From Brevibacillus sp. (GTDB lineage Bacteria > Bacillota > Bacilli > Brevibacillales > Brevibacillaceae), in NCBI GenBank assembly GCA_017656235.1, contig JACDOF010000010.1:62001-126000 (forward strand): 64,000 bases of DNA, in the 5' to 3' direction. The notes beneath the pieces were generated by a model, which was given only the letters and a program-made list of their open reading frames with translations, was not told the origin of the DNA and made no database searches. This document shows, one piece after another, positions 7,102 to 49,621 of this stretch (positions are counted from its first letter, which is position 1; the number at the start of each line of letters is the position of its first letter). Both the position numbers and the translations under genes were made by a program.

Positions 7102-8142
7102 ATGACAGACCCATACAAGCAGGCAGGTGTAGACATCGAAGCGGGCAATCAGGCCGTCGAACGGATGAAAAAACACGTCAAGCGGACGTTCCGCCCGGAA
7201 GTGCTGACTGACCTGGGCGGTTTTGGCGCTCTGTTTCGCTTGAATATCAACAAGTACGCGAATCCGGTACTGGTCTCGGGAACGGACGGGGTCGGCACCA
7301 AGCTCAAGATCGCGTTTGCGCTCGATCGGCACGATACCATCGGCATCGATGCGGTGGCGATGTGCGTCAACGACATCGTCGTCCAGGGAGCAGAGCCGCT
7401 CTTTTTCCTCGACTACGTGGCCTGCGACCAGGTGATGCCCGAAAAAATGGAGGCCATCGTCAAGGGGGTTGCCGACGGCTGCCAACAGGCAGGCTGTTCG
7501 CTGATCGGCGGAGAGACGGCGGAAATGCCCGGCATGTACGGCGCTGGCGAATACGACATCGCCGGCTTTGCGGTTGGTGTGGTCGACGAACAGAACCTGA
7601 TTGACGGGCGATCGGTGACACCGGGCGATGTACTGATCGGCATCGGTGCGAGCGGCCTGCACAGCAACGGTTTTTCGCTCGTGCGCAAAGTGCTGCTTCA
7701 GGATCACGGACTGTCGCTGACTGCGCACGTGGATGAACTGGGCAGGACATTGGGCGAGGAACTGCTCACGCCGACCAGGATTTACGTCAAGCCGATCCTT
7801 TCTCTCCTGGACAAATACACGATCAAGGCGATGGCCCACATCACCGGAGGTGGTTTTACCGAAAACATCCCGCGCGTACTGCCGGAGGGCGTGCAGGCGG
7901 AGATCGACTGCGGTTCCTGGCCGATCCTGCCCATCTTCAGCCTTCTGGAGCAGTTGGGCCGGATCGAGCGTCCGGCGATGTTTCGCACCTTCAACATGGG
8001 CATCGGGATGGTGCTGGTGGTCAATAACGAAGACGCCGTCGCCGTCATTCAGGACCTTGAACGGCAGGGAGAAAAGGCGTACCTGATCGGGCGCATCTCC
8101 GCCGGTGAGCGGCAGGTCGTATACGGCGGGGTGTCCTGGTGA
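7102..8142 (+). CDS. purM: Phosphoribosylformylglycinamidine cyclo-ligase (AIR synthetase)
   Basis: This enzyme closes the imidazole ring, turning FGAM into AIR with ATP. The 346-residue protein has the family motifs [10 protein letters not shown] near residue 57 and [18 protein letters not shown] near 90, plus the C-terminal [13 protein letters not shown]. The ATG is preceded by GAGGAGGAGA. The gene ends in a one-base overlap with the purN ATG. Confidence 0.97.
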
Positions 8143-41520: not shown

Positions 41521-41855
41521 ACAGGGAACTCATAGATCGTTTTTCCTATCTGGCGAATCGGCCACTTCTCTCTCTGGTAAAAAAGAATCACAATCTTCCT
41601 GAAAGTGGGGATATTGGAAAAGGGTTAGCGCTTAGAATGGCGAAGTAATCCTATTATAGTCCTATATCCGGAGTATGACCGAGGTAGTGCTTTCAAATGC
41701 TGATGCGTACAACCGGAAATTTTTGCGCATAGCTTTTCGCGGTGCGCGGTCACATTGTCCCCTTTGCCGGACGCCCGGCTACGACAGAGCAATAGAGATA
41801 CTATCGCGCCGTTTGATTGAGCAGCAAAGGAAAGAGTCCGTTGGGGGTATGGCAG
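41521..41855 (+). other. Leader region of the pel operon; no gene recognised
   Basis: About 335 bp without a supported gene. TATTAT at 41652-41657 could be a -10 element, but no good -35 lies 16-18 bp upstream, so an activator or another sigma factor may be needed. I searched for the c-di-GMP-I riboswitch core, which would make sense here, and did not find it. The longer reading frame from TTG 41817 has no ribosome-binding site. Confidence 0.4.
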
Positions 41856-44030
41856 ATGAATGTTCTGATCACAGGAGGTTACGGCTTTATCGGTGCTTCT
41901 GTGGCTGAACGGTTTTATAAAGAAGGGCATCGTGTATACATCATCGACAATTTGTCTTCGGGGCGGCGTGAACATGTAACCATACCACACAAGGCGTATG
42001 TTCTCAGTGTAGAAGATCAGGCTTGCGTGGAGGTGTTTCGCAGCGTTGGTTTTGACGTCGTCATCCACTTGGCGGCACATACAGCGGCTTCTTCGTCGCT
42101 GGATGAGCCGGTACTTGACGTACGGACCAACATCCTCGGGCTGGTCAACATGTTGAACTGCTCCCGACTGCATGGGGTGAAAAAATTCATCTTTGCATCA
42201 TCCGCTGCCGTCTACGGCGAGACTGACCAGCTTCCCGCCCGGGAAACAGCCACGTGCAGCCCCATGTCACCGTACGGAACGAGCAAGCTGACCGGGGAAA
42301 TGTACTGCGAAAAGTGGCGGGAACTGTACAACCTGGATACCCTGTGTCTGCGTTTTTCCAACGTGTACGGACCGCGTCAGAGGACTGACGGGGAAGCGGG
42401 GGTGATCTCCGTCTTTCTCCGCCAGGCGAGTGCGAATCAACCTCTTACGGTGTTCGGTGACGGGAGACAGACACGTGACTTCATCTATGTAGACGATGTG
42501 GCTGACGCCATCTACCGCGGTGCAACCAGCCGTGCAAGCGGCGTATACAACGTCTCCAGCGGCGTGGAGACAAGTATCAACGAGCTGATCGAAACGATCC
42601 GTTCGTTTGCCGCCGTGCCCCAAGTGGTGCACCACGAGCGACGAAACGGCGACATTACGCGCTCATGTCTGGACAGCAGCCGATTGCAGCTGGAACTGGG
42701 CTGGACTCCGCGGTACACGCTTCAAGAGGGATTGGTCAAAACGTACGAATGGCTGCTCAGACAGGAAGCGGCAGTCTCCGCAGAGCCTGCGCCTGCCCGT
42801 TGGCAGATGCCGCGCTGGCTTGCTGTCTTCCGTCCGTTTGCCGAAAACGCCATCGCCTTCAGCATTGTGATCACATTGTGGCATCATCAAAGCGGACTTT
42901 TCTACGAAAGCATTTTTGACTACAAACTTATTTACATATTGTTGATGGCTTTGTTGTACGGTACGCGTCAATCGTTCCTGGCATCTCTTGCGGTAATCGG
43001 TTTGTATGTGGCGGACAGCGTGCAAAACGGGCGCGACTGGGGATCGCTGCTGTACGACCCGGAATCGCTGTTTGTGACGGCCCTATACTTGTTTTTTGGG
43101 CTTTCGGTAGGGTATGTGACAGACAAGCACAGAAAGGAGCTGCTCTTTGCGAAAAACGAATTGGCTGTTGAACAACAGCGCTTCCGCTTGCTGATGGACG
43201 TATACAAGGATACACGCAGTGTAAAAGAAGCTCTGCAGCGACAGGTGCTGACCAGCCGGGACAGCCTGGGCCGCATCCACTCGATCATCACGGAACTGGA
43301 GAGCCTCGAACCGGAACAGGTCGTCCGCTCTGCGATCGGGGTGCTGGAGAACCTGATGGAAACCAAACAAATTGCCATCTATTCCGTTTCCCGTTTTGGT
43401 TATTTGCGGCTGCTTTTGAAATCCAATGATCCCGCGTTTCAGCTGCCCCGTTCCCAGCACCTGAACGAGGTCCCGGAATTGTCGGCAGTCGTTGACAAAA
43501 AACGTCTCTGGGTTAACAAAAAACTGTCCCCAGGGCTTCCGATGTACGCCGCGCCAATTGTGCACGACAACGAGGCGATCGCGCTTGTCTGCCTGTACGA
43601 CCAGGCGTTTGAACGCTTTACCCTGTATCACGAAAACCTGTTCAAAATAGCCGTCGAGATTATTTCCCGTTCGCTTGCTCGCGCATTTACCTACGTATCG
43701 GCAACTGAGAACGAGCGCTTCGTCGAGGGAACGTCCGTCCTGCAGGAATCCGCTTTCCGCGAGGTGCTGCGCAGTAAAATGCAGGCCAAAGAGCAGGCCC
43801 AGGCCGATTTCACCCTCTTGAGCGTACAGGCAACGGAGGAGAATCTGAAGGATGTGGCGGAGCGCACCATGCGATTGATGCGAGATACCGATTACCTCGG
43901 CATATTGGAGGGACGTCTGGTGCTGCTTCTGTCCAATACGGGGCCAAAGGAAGCAGACGCGGCAGCGGCCCGCCTGAAGCAAAACGGAATTACGACTGAA
44001 CAGATGGGTGGAATAGCAGTTTATGCTTGA
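41856..44030 (+). CDS. Fusion of a nucleotide-sugar epimerase with a PelD-like c-di-GMP receptor
   Basis: One 724-residue frame. Residues 1-310 are an extended-SDR epimerase of the GalE/PelX kind: NAD loop GGYGFIG at 7-13 and catalytic YxxxK at Tyr140/Lys144. Residues about 325-420 hold three to four membrane segments, followed by a coiled coil and a GAF domain (about 470-600). The C-terminal GGDEF-like domain has RDTD at 676-679, five residues, then EGRLV in place of GGDEF. So the inhibitory-site RxxD is kept while the cyclase site is lost, as in PelD. The ATG is preferred over an upstream TTG because of GGGGG before it. It heads the pel operon and likely gates polymer synthesis while supplying UDP-GalNAc-type sugar. 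Confidence 0.85.
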   Translation: MNVLITGGYGFIGASVAERFYKEGHRVYIIDNLSSGRREHVTIPHKAYVLSVEDQACVEVFRSVGFDVVIHLAAHTAASSSLDEPVLDVRTNILGLVNMLNCSRLHGVKKFIFASSAAVYGETDQLPARETATCSPMSPYGTSKLTGEMYCEKWRELYNLDTLCLRFSNVYGPRQRTDGEAGVISVFLRQASANQPLTVFGDGRQTRDFIYVDDVADAIYRGATSRASGVYNVSSGVETSINELIETIRSFAAVPQVVHHERRNGDITRSCLDSSRLQLELGWTPRYTLQEGLVKTYEWLLRQEAAVSAEPAPARWQMPRWLAVFRPFAENAIAFSIVITLWHHQSGLFYESIFDYKLIYILLMALLYGTRQSFLASLAVIGLYVADSVQNGRDWGSLLYDPESLFVTALYLFFGLSVGYVTDKHRKELLFAKNELAVEQQRFRLLMDVYKDTRSVKEALQRQVLTSRDSLGRIHSIITELESLEPEQVVRSAIGVLENLMETKQIAIYSVSRFGYLRLLLKSNDPAFQLPRSQHLNEVPELSAVVDKKRLWVNKKLSPGLPMYAAPIVHDNEAIALVCLYDQAFERFTLYHENLFKIAVEIISRSLARAFTYVSATENERFVEGTSVLQESAFREVLRSKMQAKEQAQADFTLLSVQATEENLKDVAERTMRLMRDTDYLGILEGRLVLLLSNTGPKEADAAAARLKQNGITTEQMGGIAVYA

Positions 44031-44919
44031 GTCAGCTCTAATGATCTATTATCTGTTAGCCTGCCTCTATGTTGCCCTTCTCCTGCAGCAGAGGAATCAA
44101 TTCGGCAGCGGTTTGGCCGCCATTGCATGCCTGATCCCGTTTGCCGGGCTGCCGCTGGCCGTGATTGCGGGCAGGGCGGGGCTTCAAGCAGGTACGGCGG
44201 ATACCCGCCGCTTTGCGGAATTGACTGAAGTTACCGGGACCGTAGATGTACCGTATAAAGTTGATATGAACAAAGAGTTGGCCATTGTCCCGCTGGAGGA
44301 GGCGTTGGTGATCAATGATTACCAGACCCGACGTCGTATTCTGCTTGATGCGCTGAAGCATGGCTCGCATGAACTGATCTCGTTTCTCTCCAAGGCGGTT
44401 CGCAATGAGGACACAGAAACGTCCCACTACGCCGTGACGGCGTTGGTAGAGTTGAAACGCGAAATGATGGGAGAACTGCAGCGCTGGTCGGTCAGCCTGG
44501 AAAAGCATCCGAACGACCTTGAGGTGTTGACCGGTTATGCAAATGCACTGCGGCGTTACCTGGGCAGCGGTCTGATGGATGCGAACACGGAACGGGCCTA
44601 TCGCCTGCTGCAGGCGGACGTATTGCAAAAGCTGACCAGACGGCCGGACTGCGGGGAGAAGGTGTTTCAGGAGAAGATCGAATGTGAACTGGCGCTGTCC
44701 CGATATGACGCAGCAGAGGACACCTGTAAACGATTCTTGACTGCCTATCCACAATCGGAAGCGGCCTATGTCATGGCAATGAAACTGTATTATACGATCA
44801 GGGCCGGGAACAAGTTTGAACTCATCCTGAAACGGTTGAAGCACTCTTCGGTAAAAGTCTCTCCCCGTACACTACAGCTAATCAGGTACTGGAGCAGGAG
44901 AGAGGAAGATGAGCAGTAA
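44023..44919 (+). CDS. pelE: PelE-like membrane and helical-repeat protein
   Basis: A 298-residue protein with two N-terminal membrane segments (residues 7-22 and 29-50) and an all-helical, TPR-like cytoplasmic part. Similarity to PelE rests on this layout and on its place between PelD and PelA genes. In Pel systems PelE joins PelD and the transferase PelF at the membrane. It overlaps the fusion gene by 8 bp and the next gene by 11 bp, which indicates tight coupling. Confidence 0.75.
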   Translation: MLESALMIYYLLACLYVALLLQQRNQFGSGLAAIACLIPFAGLPLAVIAGRAGLQAGTADTRRFAELTEVTGTVDVPYKVDMNKELAIVPLEEALVINDYQTRRRILLDALKHGSHELISFLSKAVRNEDTETSHYAVTALVELKREMMGELQRWSVSLEKHPNDLEVLTGYANALRRYLGSGLMDANTERAYRLLQADVLQKLTRRPDCGEKVFQEKIECELALSRYDAAEDTCKRFLTAYPQSEAAYVMAMKLYYTIRAGNKFELILKRLKHSSVKVSPRTLQLIRYWSRREEDEQ

Positions 44920-46762
44920 TACCTCGAATCGAACAAAAGCACTCAACCGCATCATTGTTCAGCTCGGGTTTGTCCTGCTGTTTACCATTTTGATACAGCT
45001 CTCCCGCTCCCAACTCCCGCTGGTCTGGACGTTCCATGACACGGCAGGAGAACGGCCCGCCCAGACCACACCGCGAAATGCGCTGACTCCGGAAGCGTGG
45101 AACCGTCTTGATAAGGAGAGGCTGCTCGTCCTGTACGAGCCGGACAATCCGCTTAGCGAGAAAATCAGGAAGAACGTTGAGCAGATTTTGAGCGGAATGA
45201 AGAAATCGTACGAGAGCGTCAGGGCAGGAGAAGAACTGCCGAATGTGGAAGAGAATGCTGCTGTCATCATCACCTTCTCCGACCTGTCCCACATGGGCGA
45301 AAGTGCCTGGCTGGAACGGTTTGTGGCCGAGGGGGGGCACCTTTTCTGGGCTGCCCTTCCCCAGGTGAACGATGCCTTCTACAGCTTGTCCCGCAAGCTG
45401 GGCATTCTGGAGGTGGGTTCGTATGTGGAAGCGGAGGGTCTCAAGCTCCAAACCAACATCCTGCTGGGACACGCCGGGGAGTCGTTTCACGATCCCGGCC
45501 TGGGAAACATCGTCCTGCAGGTGAAACTAACGGACGACAGCCGGATTCATGCCACCGTCGGGGAGGAGATGCCGCTGATGTGGCAGACGCCATACGGTAA
45601 AGGCTCGTTTCTCGTCTTCAATGGCACGATGCTGCAGGAAACGTCGAGCCGCGGGCTCATCGCCGGCGGATTGGGGGTCCTGCTGCCCGATTCCATCTAT
45701 CCGGTGATCAATACCAAGGTGATGTACATTGACGATTTTCCGGCACCGTTTCCGATGGGAACGCACCCGGCCATCTTTCAGGAGTACCGGCTTGATCTGC
45801 CCCAGTTTTACAAAAAGGTGTGGTGGCCGGACATGATCCGGTTGGCCCGGTCGCATGACCTGGTTTACACGGGAGCGTTGATTGTCACGTATGACGATGA
45901 CGTCTCTCCCCCTTTTGACTGGAAAAAGGAAGCCAATCTCGACAATCTGATCTTGTATGGACGTGATTTGCTCAAAGCGGGGGGTGAGATCGGGGTACAC
46001 GGGTACAATCACCAGTCGTTGACGATGAGCAAGCGGGTTTCCTACGCTTTCGGCTACAAGCAGTGGGCGGGAGTCGATGAGATGGCAGCATCGCTTCGGG
46101 AACTGCGGGAGTACGTGCAAGCTGCCTTTCCCAATTACCCGCTCCGTACCTACGTACCGCCGTCCAATGCCCTGGGGCCGGAAGGGCGGGCTGCACTTAT
46201 CCGGGCCCTGCCGGAGCTAAAGAATATCTCCTCGCTTTACGGTGAGGACGGGAAGAATCTGTCCTATACCCAGGAATACGGCATTGCCTCCGACGGCATC
46301 GTCGAAATGCCGCGGGTGACGTACGGCTACCGGATCGGTACTTACGATCGTTGGATCATGGCCAACGCAGTTACGTCGTGGGGGGTGTTTTCCCATTTCG
46401 TCCATCCTGACGACATTCTCGACCCCAAGCGCAGCGGCGGTGAGGGATGGTCCGACTTGTACGACGGATTTGCGGCCTTTCTGGATTTCGTTCACGATCG
46501 CTTTGGCTGGCTGCGCAGCATGACCGCTGCCGACGCCAGTGTGGAAGTGGAGCGGTGGGCGCGAAGCAAACCCGTTTTTGAGCGAAGGCCGGACGGACTG
46601 TACGGATATGTGAACCACTTTACAGGAGAGATGTATTTTGTCATGCGGACAGAAAAGAAGCTGGTCCGAACCAACCACTGCAGCCTGTTGCGGATTGATG
46701 AAGGCGTCTATCTGGTGCGGGCGGAGCGTGAGACTTTTTCCATTGAATGGACGGAGGGATAA
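44909..46762 (+). CDS. pelA: PelA-like polysaccharide deacetylase (DUF2194), hydrolase domain absent
   Basis: A 617-residue protein with one N-terminal membrane anchor (residues 15-31), a GATase-like or Rossmann-like region (about 70-270), then a CE4-like deacetylase. Probable metal ligands are the DD pair in MYIDDFPAPFP near residue 275 and HGYNH near 370; later motifs are RTYVPPSNALG and FSHFVHPDD. P. aeruginosa PelA also has an N-terminal glycosidase domain, missing here as in the Bacillus cereus type. It should deacetylate the polymer outside the membrane. Confidence 0.82.
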   Translation: MSSNTSNRTKALNRIIVQLGFVLLFTILIQLSRSQLPLVWTFHDTAGERPAQTTPRNALTPEAWNRLDKERLLVLYEPDNPLSEKIRKNVEQILSGMKKSYESVRAGEELPNVEENAAVIITFSDLSHMGESAWLERFVAEGGHLFWAALPQVNDAFYSLSRKLGILEVGSYVEAEGLKLQTNILLGHAGESFHDPGLGNIVLQVKLTDDSRIHATVGEEMPLMWQTPYGKGSFLVFNGTMLQETSSRGLIAGGLGVLLPDSIYPVINTKVMYIDDFPAPFPMGTHPAIFQEYRLDLPQFYKKVWWPDMIRLARSHDLVYTGALIVTYDDDVSPPFDWKKEANLDNLILYGRDLLKAGGEIGVHGYNHQSLTMSKRVSYAFGYKQWAGVDEMAASLRELREYVQAAFPNYPLRTYVPPSNALGPEGRAALIRALPELKNISSLYGEDGKNLSYTQEYGIASDGIVEMPRVTYGYRIGTYDRWIMANAVTSWGVFSHFVHPDDILDPKRSGGEGWSDLYDGFAAFLDFVHDRFGWLRSMTAADASVEVERWARSKPVFERRPDGLYGYVNHFTGEMYFVMRTEKKLVRTNHCSLLRIDEGVYLVRAERETFSIEWTEG

Positions 46763-48183
46763 TGAAGATCTGTATCGTTGCTGAAGGCTCTTATCCCTAT
46801 ATTACTGGCGGTGTGTCCAGTTGGATTCACACCTTGGTCAGTTCCATGCCAGAGCACCAATTCATCATTTACGCCATTGGAGCGGAAGAAAGGTATCGCG
46901 GCCAGTTTCGGTACAAGCTGCCTGAAAATGTGGAACAAGTGGTGGAAGTGTTTCTCGATTCGTTTCACCTGGACGGAAAACGATGGGGCCGATCTTTAAA
47001 GATGAACAAGGAAGAGCGGGAAGCGCTGAAAGCGTTGATCGCCGGAGAGGAAGAAACGGATTGGGAGCGTGTGTTTCGTACGCTGCGCGATGCCAGATGG
47101 CGGACATCGACCGAGTTCTTGATGAGCCGCGATTACTTTGATCTGTTGAGTGAACTGTGTCGGGAGCGGTTTGAGCAGCTTCCGTTCACGGAGATGTTCT
47201 GGACGGTCCGCTCGATGCTGCTGCCGCTGGTCCAGTTGATCCGCCACCCCTTGCCGCAAGCCGATCTTTACCATGCTGTATCGACCGGATATGCCGGTGT
47301 GATCGCCAGCCTGGGGAAACACCTGTACGGGAAACCGATGCTCCTGACGGAGCACGGGATTTACTCCCGAGAGCGGGAGGAAGAGATAATCAAGGCAGAC
47401 TGGGTGAAAGGGTACTTCAAGGATTTGTGGATACGCTACTTTTACGGTTTGTCCCGTTGTGCCTACGGCTATGCCGATCGCGTTGTCACCCTGTTTCAGC
47501 GAAATCGGGAGATTCAAGCGGAACTGGGCTGTCCGGAGTCAAAGATTATGATCATTCCCAACGGAATAAAGGTGGACGACTATTTGAATCTGCCCGGCAA
47601 AGATGGTGACGCCAAGACCATCAACATTGGTGCGATCGTGCGGGTTGTGCCGATCAAGGATATCAAGACAATGCTGTACGCCTTTGCGGCTGTAAAACGC
47701 GAGGTGCCGCAAGCCACTTTTACGATCATGGGCTCTTGTGACGAAGAACCGGAGTACTACCAGGAATGCCTGGAGTTGGTCAAGATGCTGGAGATCGCCG
47801 ATCTTGCCTTTACGGGAAGCATCAACGTCAAGCAGGTTCTCGGGCGGATGGACGTGATCGTCCTGACCAGTATCAGCGAAGGGCAGCCGCTGGCCGTTCT
47901 GGAGGCGATGGCGGCAGCCAAACCGGTCGTCGCTACCGATGTCGGCAACTGCCGGGAGCTGCTGTACGGCAGTGGGCAGGAGGGCGACACAGGACGTGCG
48001 GGAATCATTGTACCTGTGTTGGACGACGCCGAGATCGCCAGAGCAATCATCTCTTTATGCCGTAATAGCGTCGCCCGACAGGCCATGGGATTAAACGGCA
48101 GACGGCGCGTCATGTACGCTTACACCCACGATCAGTTTACCGACCGCTACGAGTCGTTGTACCGGTCACTTGGGTTGAAATAG
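46762..48183 (+). CDS. pelF: PelF-type GT4 glycosyltransferase
   Basis: The 473-residue protein is the cytosolic polymerising transferase of the Pel system. It opens with MKICIVAEGSYPYITGGVSS, the PelF hallmark, and contains TEHGIYSREREEEI near residue 195, NGIKVDDY near 270, and the GT4 donor site SISEGQPLAVLEAMAAAKP near 375. The ATG at 46762 overlaps the previous stop (TAATG) behind ACGGAGGG. It is expected to use UDP-GalNAc or UDP-GlcNAc. Confidence 0.93.
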   Translation: MKICIVAEGSYPYITGGVSSWIHTLVSSMPEHQFIIYAIGAEERYRGQFRYKLPENVEQVVEVFLDSFHLDGKRWGRSLKMNKEEREALKALIAGEEETDWERVFRTLRDARWRTSTEFLMSRDYFDLLSELCRERFEQLPFTEMFWTVRSMLLPLVQLIRHPLPQADLYHAVSTGYAGVIASLGKHLYGKPMLLTEHGIYSREREEEIIKADWVKGYFKDLWIRYFYGLSRCAYGYADRVVTLFQRNREIQAELGCPESKIMIIPNGIKVDDYLNLPGKDGDAKTINIGAIVRVVPIKDIKTMLYAFAAVKREVPQATFTIMGSCDEEPEYYQECLELVKMLEIADLAFTGSINVKQVLGRMDVIVLTSISEGQPLAVLEAMAAAKPVVATDVGNCRELLYGSGQEGDTGRAGIIVPVLDDAEIARAIISLCRNSVARQAMGLNGRRRVMYAYTHDQFTDRYESLYRSLGLK

Positions 48184-48199: not shown

Positions 48200-49621
48200 G
48201 TGGCGGGAATCGGATTTCAACTGAAGCGGTTGTTTGACCGGGAAGGGTTGATTGGCCGGGTTCAGGCCGTTTCGTACGCCTCGCTGGTGACAGTGGGCCC
48301 CATGTTGAGCTGTATCGTCGCGGTGGCCGTGATCCACTGGCTGTTGGTCGCCGCGCATGCTCCCTATTACGAGCGTGAAGTGTTTACGGCGGGCATGGCC
48401 TACGCCTTTGCCTTCTCGTTCGTGATTACATCGCCATTTAGCCTGTTTTTGACCCGATTGACCTCCGACTTGTTGTACGAACAGCGTTACGCTGAACTGC
48501 TGCCTTCCTTTTCTCGCTACCTGGGGATTACGCTTTTGTCCGCCTGTCTGCCGGCGCTGTTGTTTCTTTTGCTTGCCTCGCTGTCGCTGGGAGTGAAAGT
48601 ATCCCTGTTTGTCCTGTACATGGAGCTGAATGTGATCTGGCTCGCTGTCGTATACGTGTCGGCGATGAAAACCTACTATTACGTCGCACGCGCCTTTTTG
48701 GCAGGGATGGGTACGTCCGTTGCCGTGGTCTGGGTGTACCTGAACTGGACCTCTGCCGTGTCCGCTGCGGCTCTGTTGACAGCCATGGCGTTCGGATTCT
48801 TCCTGGTTGCCGCCAATCTGCTGCGGGAGATCGGGCGGTTTTTCGGGATGCCGGGGATGACGGTGCTCTCTACGGTTCAGGATGATCTCAAGCGGTATCC
48901 ATCGCTGCTGGCAATTGGTCTGTTCTCGGGCCTGTGCATGTTTGGGCACCAGTTTGCCCAATGGATTTTCAACGGGATTTGGCTGGCTGACGCTTTTCTG
49001 GTAACCCCGGAGTACGATGCCGTCGTCTTTTACGCCGTACTCTCGGTCCTGCCCACTCTTGTCCAGTTTGTCGTCTCGGTGGAAACCTCGTTCTACCCCA
49101 AGTATCGCCGGTACTATGATGCGATCCTGGGCCAGGGAACGATAGTCGAGATCGATCTGGCAAGGGAGGAACTGCAAAAAGTGCTGCTTGGAGAATTGGC
49201 CAGGCTGATGGGGATTCAGCTCGTTTTTTCTCTGATCGCCGTGGCCTGCGGGATTGGCTTTTTGCCTTACATCGGGTTTACAAGCCAGCAGATAGACGTG
49301 TTCAACATCCTGGTGATGGCCTATTACGTTTATGTCATGACCAGCGTGATCCTGCTTCTGCTGCTCTACTTTGACGATCGGATGGGTACGCTGCTCCTTT
49401 CGGCTTTGCTCTTTGCGGCCAACCTGCTTGCCTCCTGGTTTCTACAGGCCGAGCGGTTCCAGGGGCTGTCCCTGTTTGTCGCTTCCTTCCCTGTGCTGGT
49501 GATTGGCTTGACCAGGCTGTATATGCGCCTGCGCCAGCTTAACTATGCGACATTCAGTGCCCAGCCGCTGTCTCCCCGCAAAAAACACAGCGCGCACAGC
49601 AAAATGGAGCATGCTGGCTGA
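48200..49621 (+). CDS. pelG: PelG-type polysaccharide exporter
   Basis: A 473-residue protein with about twelve membrane segments, from the PelG branch of the MOP flippase superfamily. It begins MAGIGFQLKRLFDREGLIGR, the usual PelG opening, followed by SFVITSPFSLFLTRLTSD. It should pass the Pel chain across the membrane next to PelD, PelE and PelF. GTG start behind GAGGAGG. It is the last gene of the operon; no clear terminator follows. Confidence 0.93.
   Translation: MAGIGFQLKRLFDREGLIGRVQAVSYASLVTVGPMLSCIVAVAVIHWLLVAAHAPYYEREVFTAGMAYAFAFSFVITSPFSLFLTRLTSDLLYEQRYAELLPSFSRYLGITLLSACLPALLFLLLASLSLGVKVSLFVLYMELNVIWLAVVYVSAMKTYYYVARAFLAGMGTSVAVVWVYLNWTSAVSAAALLTAMAFGFFLVAANLLREIGRFFGMPGMTVLSTVQDDLKRYPSLLAIGLFSGLCMFGHQFAQWIFNGIWLADAFLVTPEYDAVVFYAVLSVLPTLVQFVVSVETSFYPKYRRYYDAILGQGTIVEIDLAREELQKVLLGELARLMGIQLVFSLIAVACGIGFLPYIGFTSQQIDVFNILVMAYYVYVMTSVILLLLLYFDDRMGTLLLSALLFAANLLASWFLQAERFQGLSLFVASFPVLVIGLTRLYMRLRQLNYATFSAQPLSPRKKHSAHSKMEHAG

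Follow-up and report, generated by a model that had tools for sequence, protein, structure and literature searches.

A fused epimerase-PelD protein encoded by the first gene of a complete Brevibacillus pel operon: a predicted membrane c-di-GMP receptor with its own UDP-hexose 4-epimerase-like domain

Introduction

Pel is built from N-acetylgalactosamine (GalNAc), and its synthesis requires UDP-GalNAc (PMC9135694). In the survey of Whitfield et al. (2020, PLoS Pathog; PMC7112168), every Brevibacillus PelD was found to have an extra SDR/epimerase domain at its N terminus whose residues look functional, while the domain has altered residues in the extended PelDs from streptococci, clostridia and actinobacteria. 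The same authors found that a Streptococcus without the epimerase domain still forms a pel-dependent biofilm, and they showed by mutation that c-di-GMP binding and biofilm both require each of the I-site residues of Bacillus cereus PelD, R363 and D366 of the RxxD motif and the distal R395. The epimerase-PelD fusion itself has therefore been known since 2020 from Brevibacillus, and it is common among spore-forming relatives; the original prediction for the present locus, in which the two were taken to be known only as separate proteins, was wrong on this point. The accessible literature yielded no biochemistry for any fused epimerase-PelD. For supply of the precursor by a separate enzyme, PelX of Pseudomonas protegens is reportedly a UDP-GlcNAc C4-epimerase.

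Results

Fusion gene and pel operon

The analysis was performed on a 64,000-nucleotide stretch of Brevibacillus sp. DNA, here called the window, and all of the features described lie on its forward strand. The fusion gene (positions 41856 to 44030) is a single uninterrupted open frame from an ATG at 41856 to a stop codon ending at 44030, giving the predicted 724 residues; an alternative in-frame TTG at 41817, upstream of the ATG, would give 737 residues. The nearest named relatives were Brevibacillus thermoruber, B. migulae and "Anoxybacillus sediminis" PCH 117. An origin of the fusion in a frameshift or an assembly artefact was given practically no weight, as one-frame fusions with 61 to 71% identity across the whole length were present in several independent assemblies, and dozens of further genomes also contained the fusion in one frame. 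Numerous one-frame relatives likewise excluded a sequencing error as its source.

The Gram-positive pelDEA(DA)FG operon was complete and in order, with the fusion gene in first place. The end of this gene is overlapped by pelE (44023 to 44919), a membrane/TPR protein gene assigned from weak TPR matches and from its position beside pelD, which is kept in relatives. This is followed by the deacetylase-type gene pelA (DUF2194; 44909 to 46762; PF09960, E=6e-146), the glycosyltransferase gene pelF (46747 to 48183; NCBIfam NF038011, 384 bits against a cut-off of 100) and pelG (48200 to 49621; PF16933, E=2e-109). A search for a riboswitch ahead of the pel genes was negative, with nothing in the window reaching the Rfam gathering score, and a simple scan of the 430-base gap gave no sigma-70-like promoter. 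Since five GGDEF and three EAL matches were found in the genome, c-di-GMP is presumably both made and degraded there.

Epimerase half

Residues 1 to 303 (41856 to 42764) were assigned to an extended-SDR, UDP-hexose 4-epimerase-like domain. This was supported by a match of residues 3 to 233 to Pfam Epimerase (PF01370, E=7.7e-60) and by its nearest sequence in the PDB, 4zrm, a "UDP-glucose 4-epimerase" (E=4e-66). Alignment to E. coli GalE accounted for the GxxGxxG, catalytic serine and YxxxK features of extended SDRs: the NAD-binding glycine motif TGGYGFIG (residues 6 to 13; 41871 to 41894) aligned with G7/G10/G13, and S116, Y140 and K144 corresponded to S124, Y149 and K153, the last two lying in YGTSK (residues 140 to 144; 42273 to 42287). 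The expectation of a complete epimerase with a Rossmann loop and a YxxxK motif was thus borne out. Against the GalE equivalog NCBIfam TIGR01179 the fused domain scored 184 bits, under the curated cut-off of 262 bits, so that by sequence it is epimerase-like but falls outside GalE proper as filed by NCBIfam.

Work on GalE enzymes includes the replacement of the E. coli gatekeeper Tyr299 by Cys, and Cys or Ser occupies this site in enzymes that accept N-acetylated substrates. The equivalent residue here is S270 (42663 to 42665, by alignment), and Ser was the gatekeeper in nearly all of the intact fusions. This small residue would be compatible with UDP-GlcNAc/UDP-GalNAc as the substrate pair, as a feature that is permissive and no proof of the substrate. 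In three closely similar fused proteins (L085 to L087), the gatekeeper was Leu or Gln instead of Ser, and these may possibly act on a different sugar.

PelD half and c-di-GMP site

Four membrane segments were predicted at residues ~323 to 421 (42822 to 43118) from hydropathy, and helices were present here in the predicted models. Given four segments, both soluble parts should be cytoplasmic, where the UDP-sugars are. A GAF domain (residues ~468 to 620; 43257 to 43715) was assigned from fold comparison and because 9 of 13 relatives matched GAF families. The degenerate GGDEF domain (residues ~631 to 716; 43746 to 44003) was assigned from alignment and from the match of the GAF-GGDEF part to the PelD fold. 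GG[D/E]EF is absent and is replaced by EGRLV at residues 685 to 689, as in the noncatalytic GGDEF of PelD. The translation confirmed that the I-site motif RDTD (residues 676 to 679; 43881 to 43892) stands exactly five residues (YLGIL, to 684) ahead of EGRLV. The columns of R676, D679 and the second I-site arginine, R706 (43971 to 43973), were all kept across fused and standalone PelDs. The half therefore has the membrane segments, GAF, degenerate GGDEF, RxxD and distal Arg that mark a PelD.

The predicted structure of the C-terminal ~400 residues had a mean pLDDT of 81.5, and its top PDB fold matches were P. aeruginosa PelD, 4etz (E=3e-8) and 4dn0, the c-di-GMP complex (E=2.5e-7). The rmsd of these alignments was high, about 15 to 16 Å, which would fit differing domain angles. 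PelD was recognized by fold search only and not by sequence: the half had no Pfam match, PelD was absent from the PDB sequence searches, whose weak matches were taken as chance, and a search with Pfam PelD_GGDEF (PF16963) found nothing in the genome, the control sequences likewise being without a match. Domain databases and structure prediction thus bore out the epimerase in Pfam and PelD as the best PDB fold match, but Pfam was silent on the PelD half. A VIA-align fold comparison returned mainly GAF proteins, with PelD not among the 50 matches listed, the list being taken up by matches to the GAF domain. Taken together, the motifs, the fold match and the I-site conservation support the predicted combination of an active-looking epimerase with what appears to be a PelD-type c-di-GMP receptor lacking the cyclase motif.

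Distribution of the fusion

The fusion was found in many relatives. Within the order to which the window belongs, a PelD match was obtained in 17 of 39 genomes, lying in 16 of them in open frames of 708 to 774 residues; the remaining match was partial, in a frame of 667 residues. Nearly all of the PelD-bearing Brevibacillaceae sampled carried the one-frame fusion. In a Paenibacillaceae-like family, 49 of 396 genomes had a match in an open frame of ~700 residues or more. The class- and phylum-wide samples contained fused forms and standalone forms of ~410 to 450 residues, the latter under-sampled, as the search profile had been derived from fused sequences.

In a tree of 54 PelD parts, one branch (support 100/99) separated the standalone from the fused forms, a topology consistent with a single fusion event, and the degenerate epimerases required at least three changes on the same tree. 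Most of the 67 distinct fused sequences kept every catalytic residue, and most of the decayed ones kept the I-site. Among the clostridia, the genomes of Clostridium aestuarii (L005) and of one Peptococcaceae MAG (L004) had intact epimerase motifs, which refines the published statement on this group. In Jeotgalibacillus (L009 and L010), the epimerase motifs were intact and the I-site was lost (EENE for RxxD, with the second Arg gone); these fusions are probably no longer responsive to c-di-GMP. One genome (G104) had two pel loci (L110 and L122), one with a fused, decayed epimerase-PelD and the other with a standalone PelD.

In three genomes the epimerase and PelD frames were split at the linker, and in each case a poly-A run marks the shift of PelD into the −1 frame: Paenibacillus plantiphilus (L011, 7894 to 7939; A7), Neobacillus dielmonensis (L013, about 7900 to 7975; A11) and a single-contig Paenibacillaceae-like genome (L095, about 1462 to 1500; A6). 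The breaks look like single-A losses. Sequencing errors in homopolymers or recent mutations could account for them, as could slippage (a programmed frameshift) yielding both separate and fused products.

Neighboring epimerases

Among 32 pel loci whose fused epimerase is intact, only 1 had a second epimerase-like gene within about 7 to 9 kb, as compared with 7 of 21 loci with a standalone PelD or a decayed domain (Fisher p=0.004, with kinship ignored and with flank lengths that differ between the groups). The rarity of a separate epimerase beside the intact fusions would fit a fused domain that does the job of a separate galE. The fused epimerase of Bacillus sp. V5-8f (L016) reads IGMNK, without the catalytic Tyr, and an intact, separate epimerase gene lies just upstream. 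The genome under study also encodes other epimerase-like SDRs, at least two of which (L020 and L022) share its small gatekeeper residue; the precursor may thus have other sources besides the fused domain. Furthermore, in several relatives the epimerase has decayed within a retained operon and no replacement lies next to it, from which it follows that the domain can be dispensable or can gain another role.

Discussion

The best explanation of the locus as a whole, to which a probability of roughly 0.8 was assigned, is a Brevibacillus-type PelD, that is, a c-di-GMP receptor in the membrane that carries its own UDP-hexose 4-epimerase domain in the cytoplasm, where UDP-GalNAc would be made beside PelF. 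This is supported by the complete pel operon, the PelD fold match, the intact catalytic residues and gatekeeper serine, and the conserved I-site triad, and further by the scarcity of second epimerases beside intact fusions, the GGDEF and EAL matches of the genome, the need of Pel for UDP-GalNAc and the predicted cytoplasmic location of both soluble parts. Against it stand the other epimerase-like SDRs, the GalE score below the cut-off, and the relatives with a decayed, unreplaced epimerase. The epimerase domain would most likely turn UDP-GlcNAc into UDP-GalNAc at the membrane, beside the Pel synthase PelF, a substrate and a catalytic activity that we infer. Binding of c-di-GMP at the I-site of the degenerate GGDEF domain would switch on Pel synthesis, as it does in B. 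cereus and P. aeruginosa; both this binding and the need for it in biofilm formation are carried over from the literature on unfused PelD. The simplest role of the fusion would be to co-localize precursor supply with the synthase.

At least three lineages retain decayed copies within a single frame, which raised the question of whether the fused SDR is mainly structural, serving in assembly or in NAD/UDP-sugar sensing rather than as a needed enzyme. The pel-dependent biofilm of a Streptococcus without the domain (PMC7112168) and the other epimerases in the genome point the same way. This was nevertheless considered rather unlikely, as every catalytic residue is kept in the window protein and in most of its fused relatives, and a second epimerase is seldom adjacent. 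A direct switching of the fused epimerase by c-di-GMP through the PelD half, so that one messenger would gate both UDP-GalNAc supply and polymerization, was judged quite improbable. The two domains are physically linked in a single chain, both are predicted to be cytoplasmic, and the I-site and catalytic residues are conserved together in most fusions. However, the linker is poorly conserved and modeled with low confidence, which does not suggest tight coupling; a few relatives have the chain split at this very place, and Jeotgalibacillus has kept the epimerase motifs while losing the I-site.

With the preferred reading of a PelD carrying its own epimerase, precursor supply and the c-di-GMP receptor would reside in a single polypeptide in a wide range of Bacillota, and the fusion would be a good test system for the channeling of UDP-GalNAc to the Pel synthase. 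To the published picture are added the single branch between fused and standalone forms, the contrast in neighboring epimerases, the repeated decay of the epimerase with the I-site usually kept, and the serine gatekeeper. The distribution data (few epimerases beside intact fusions, repeated decay, two clostridial intact epimerases) refine that picture and leave its kind unchanged.

Among the described systems, P. protegens PelX was likened to the fused domain by description, since the identical reaction is proposed for Pel precursor supply; it differs in being a stand-alone enzyme. P. aeruginosa PelD (4etz, 4dn0) shares the GAF and degenerate GGDEF fold and the c-di-GMP I-site and is the best PDB fold match, but has no epimerase domain, is ~14% identical and belongs to a Gram-negative operon with pelB/pelC. 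The PelD of B. cereus ATCC 10987 (BCE_5583) has the same order of membrane segments, GAF and degenerate GGDEF, the same RxxD and distal Arg, and the same operon order; it lacks the epimerase domain, and galE (BCE_5588) is a separate flanking gene. The closest system is the Brevibacillus SDR-PelD (PMC7112168), with an N-terminal SDR/epimerase of functional-looking residues on PelD in a pelDEA(DA)FG operon. The window protein, a one-frame fusion with intact epimerase residues from a member of the Brevibacillaceae, belongs to this type; the species differs, and no difference of kind was found.
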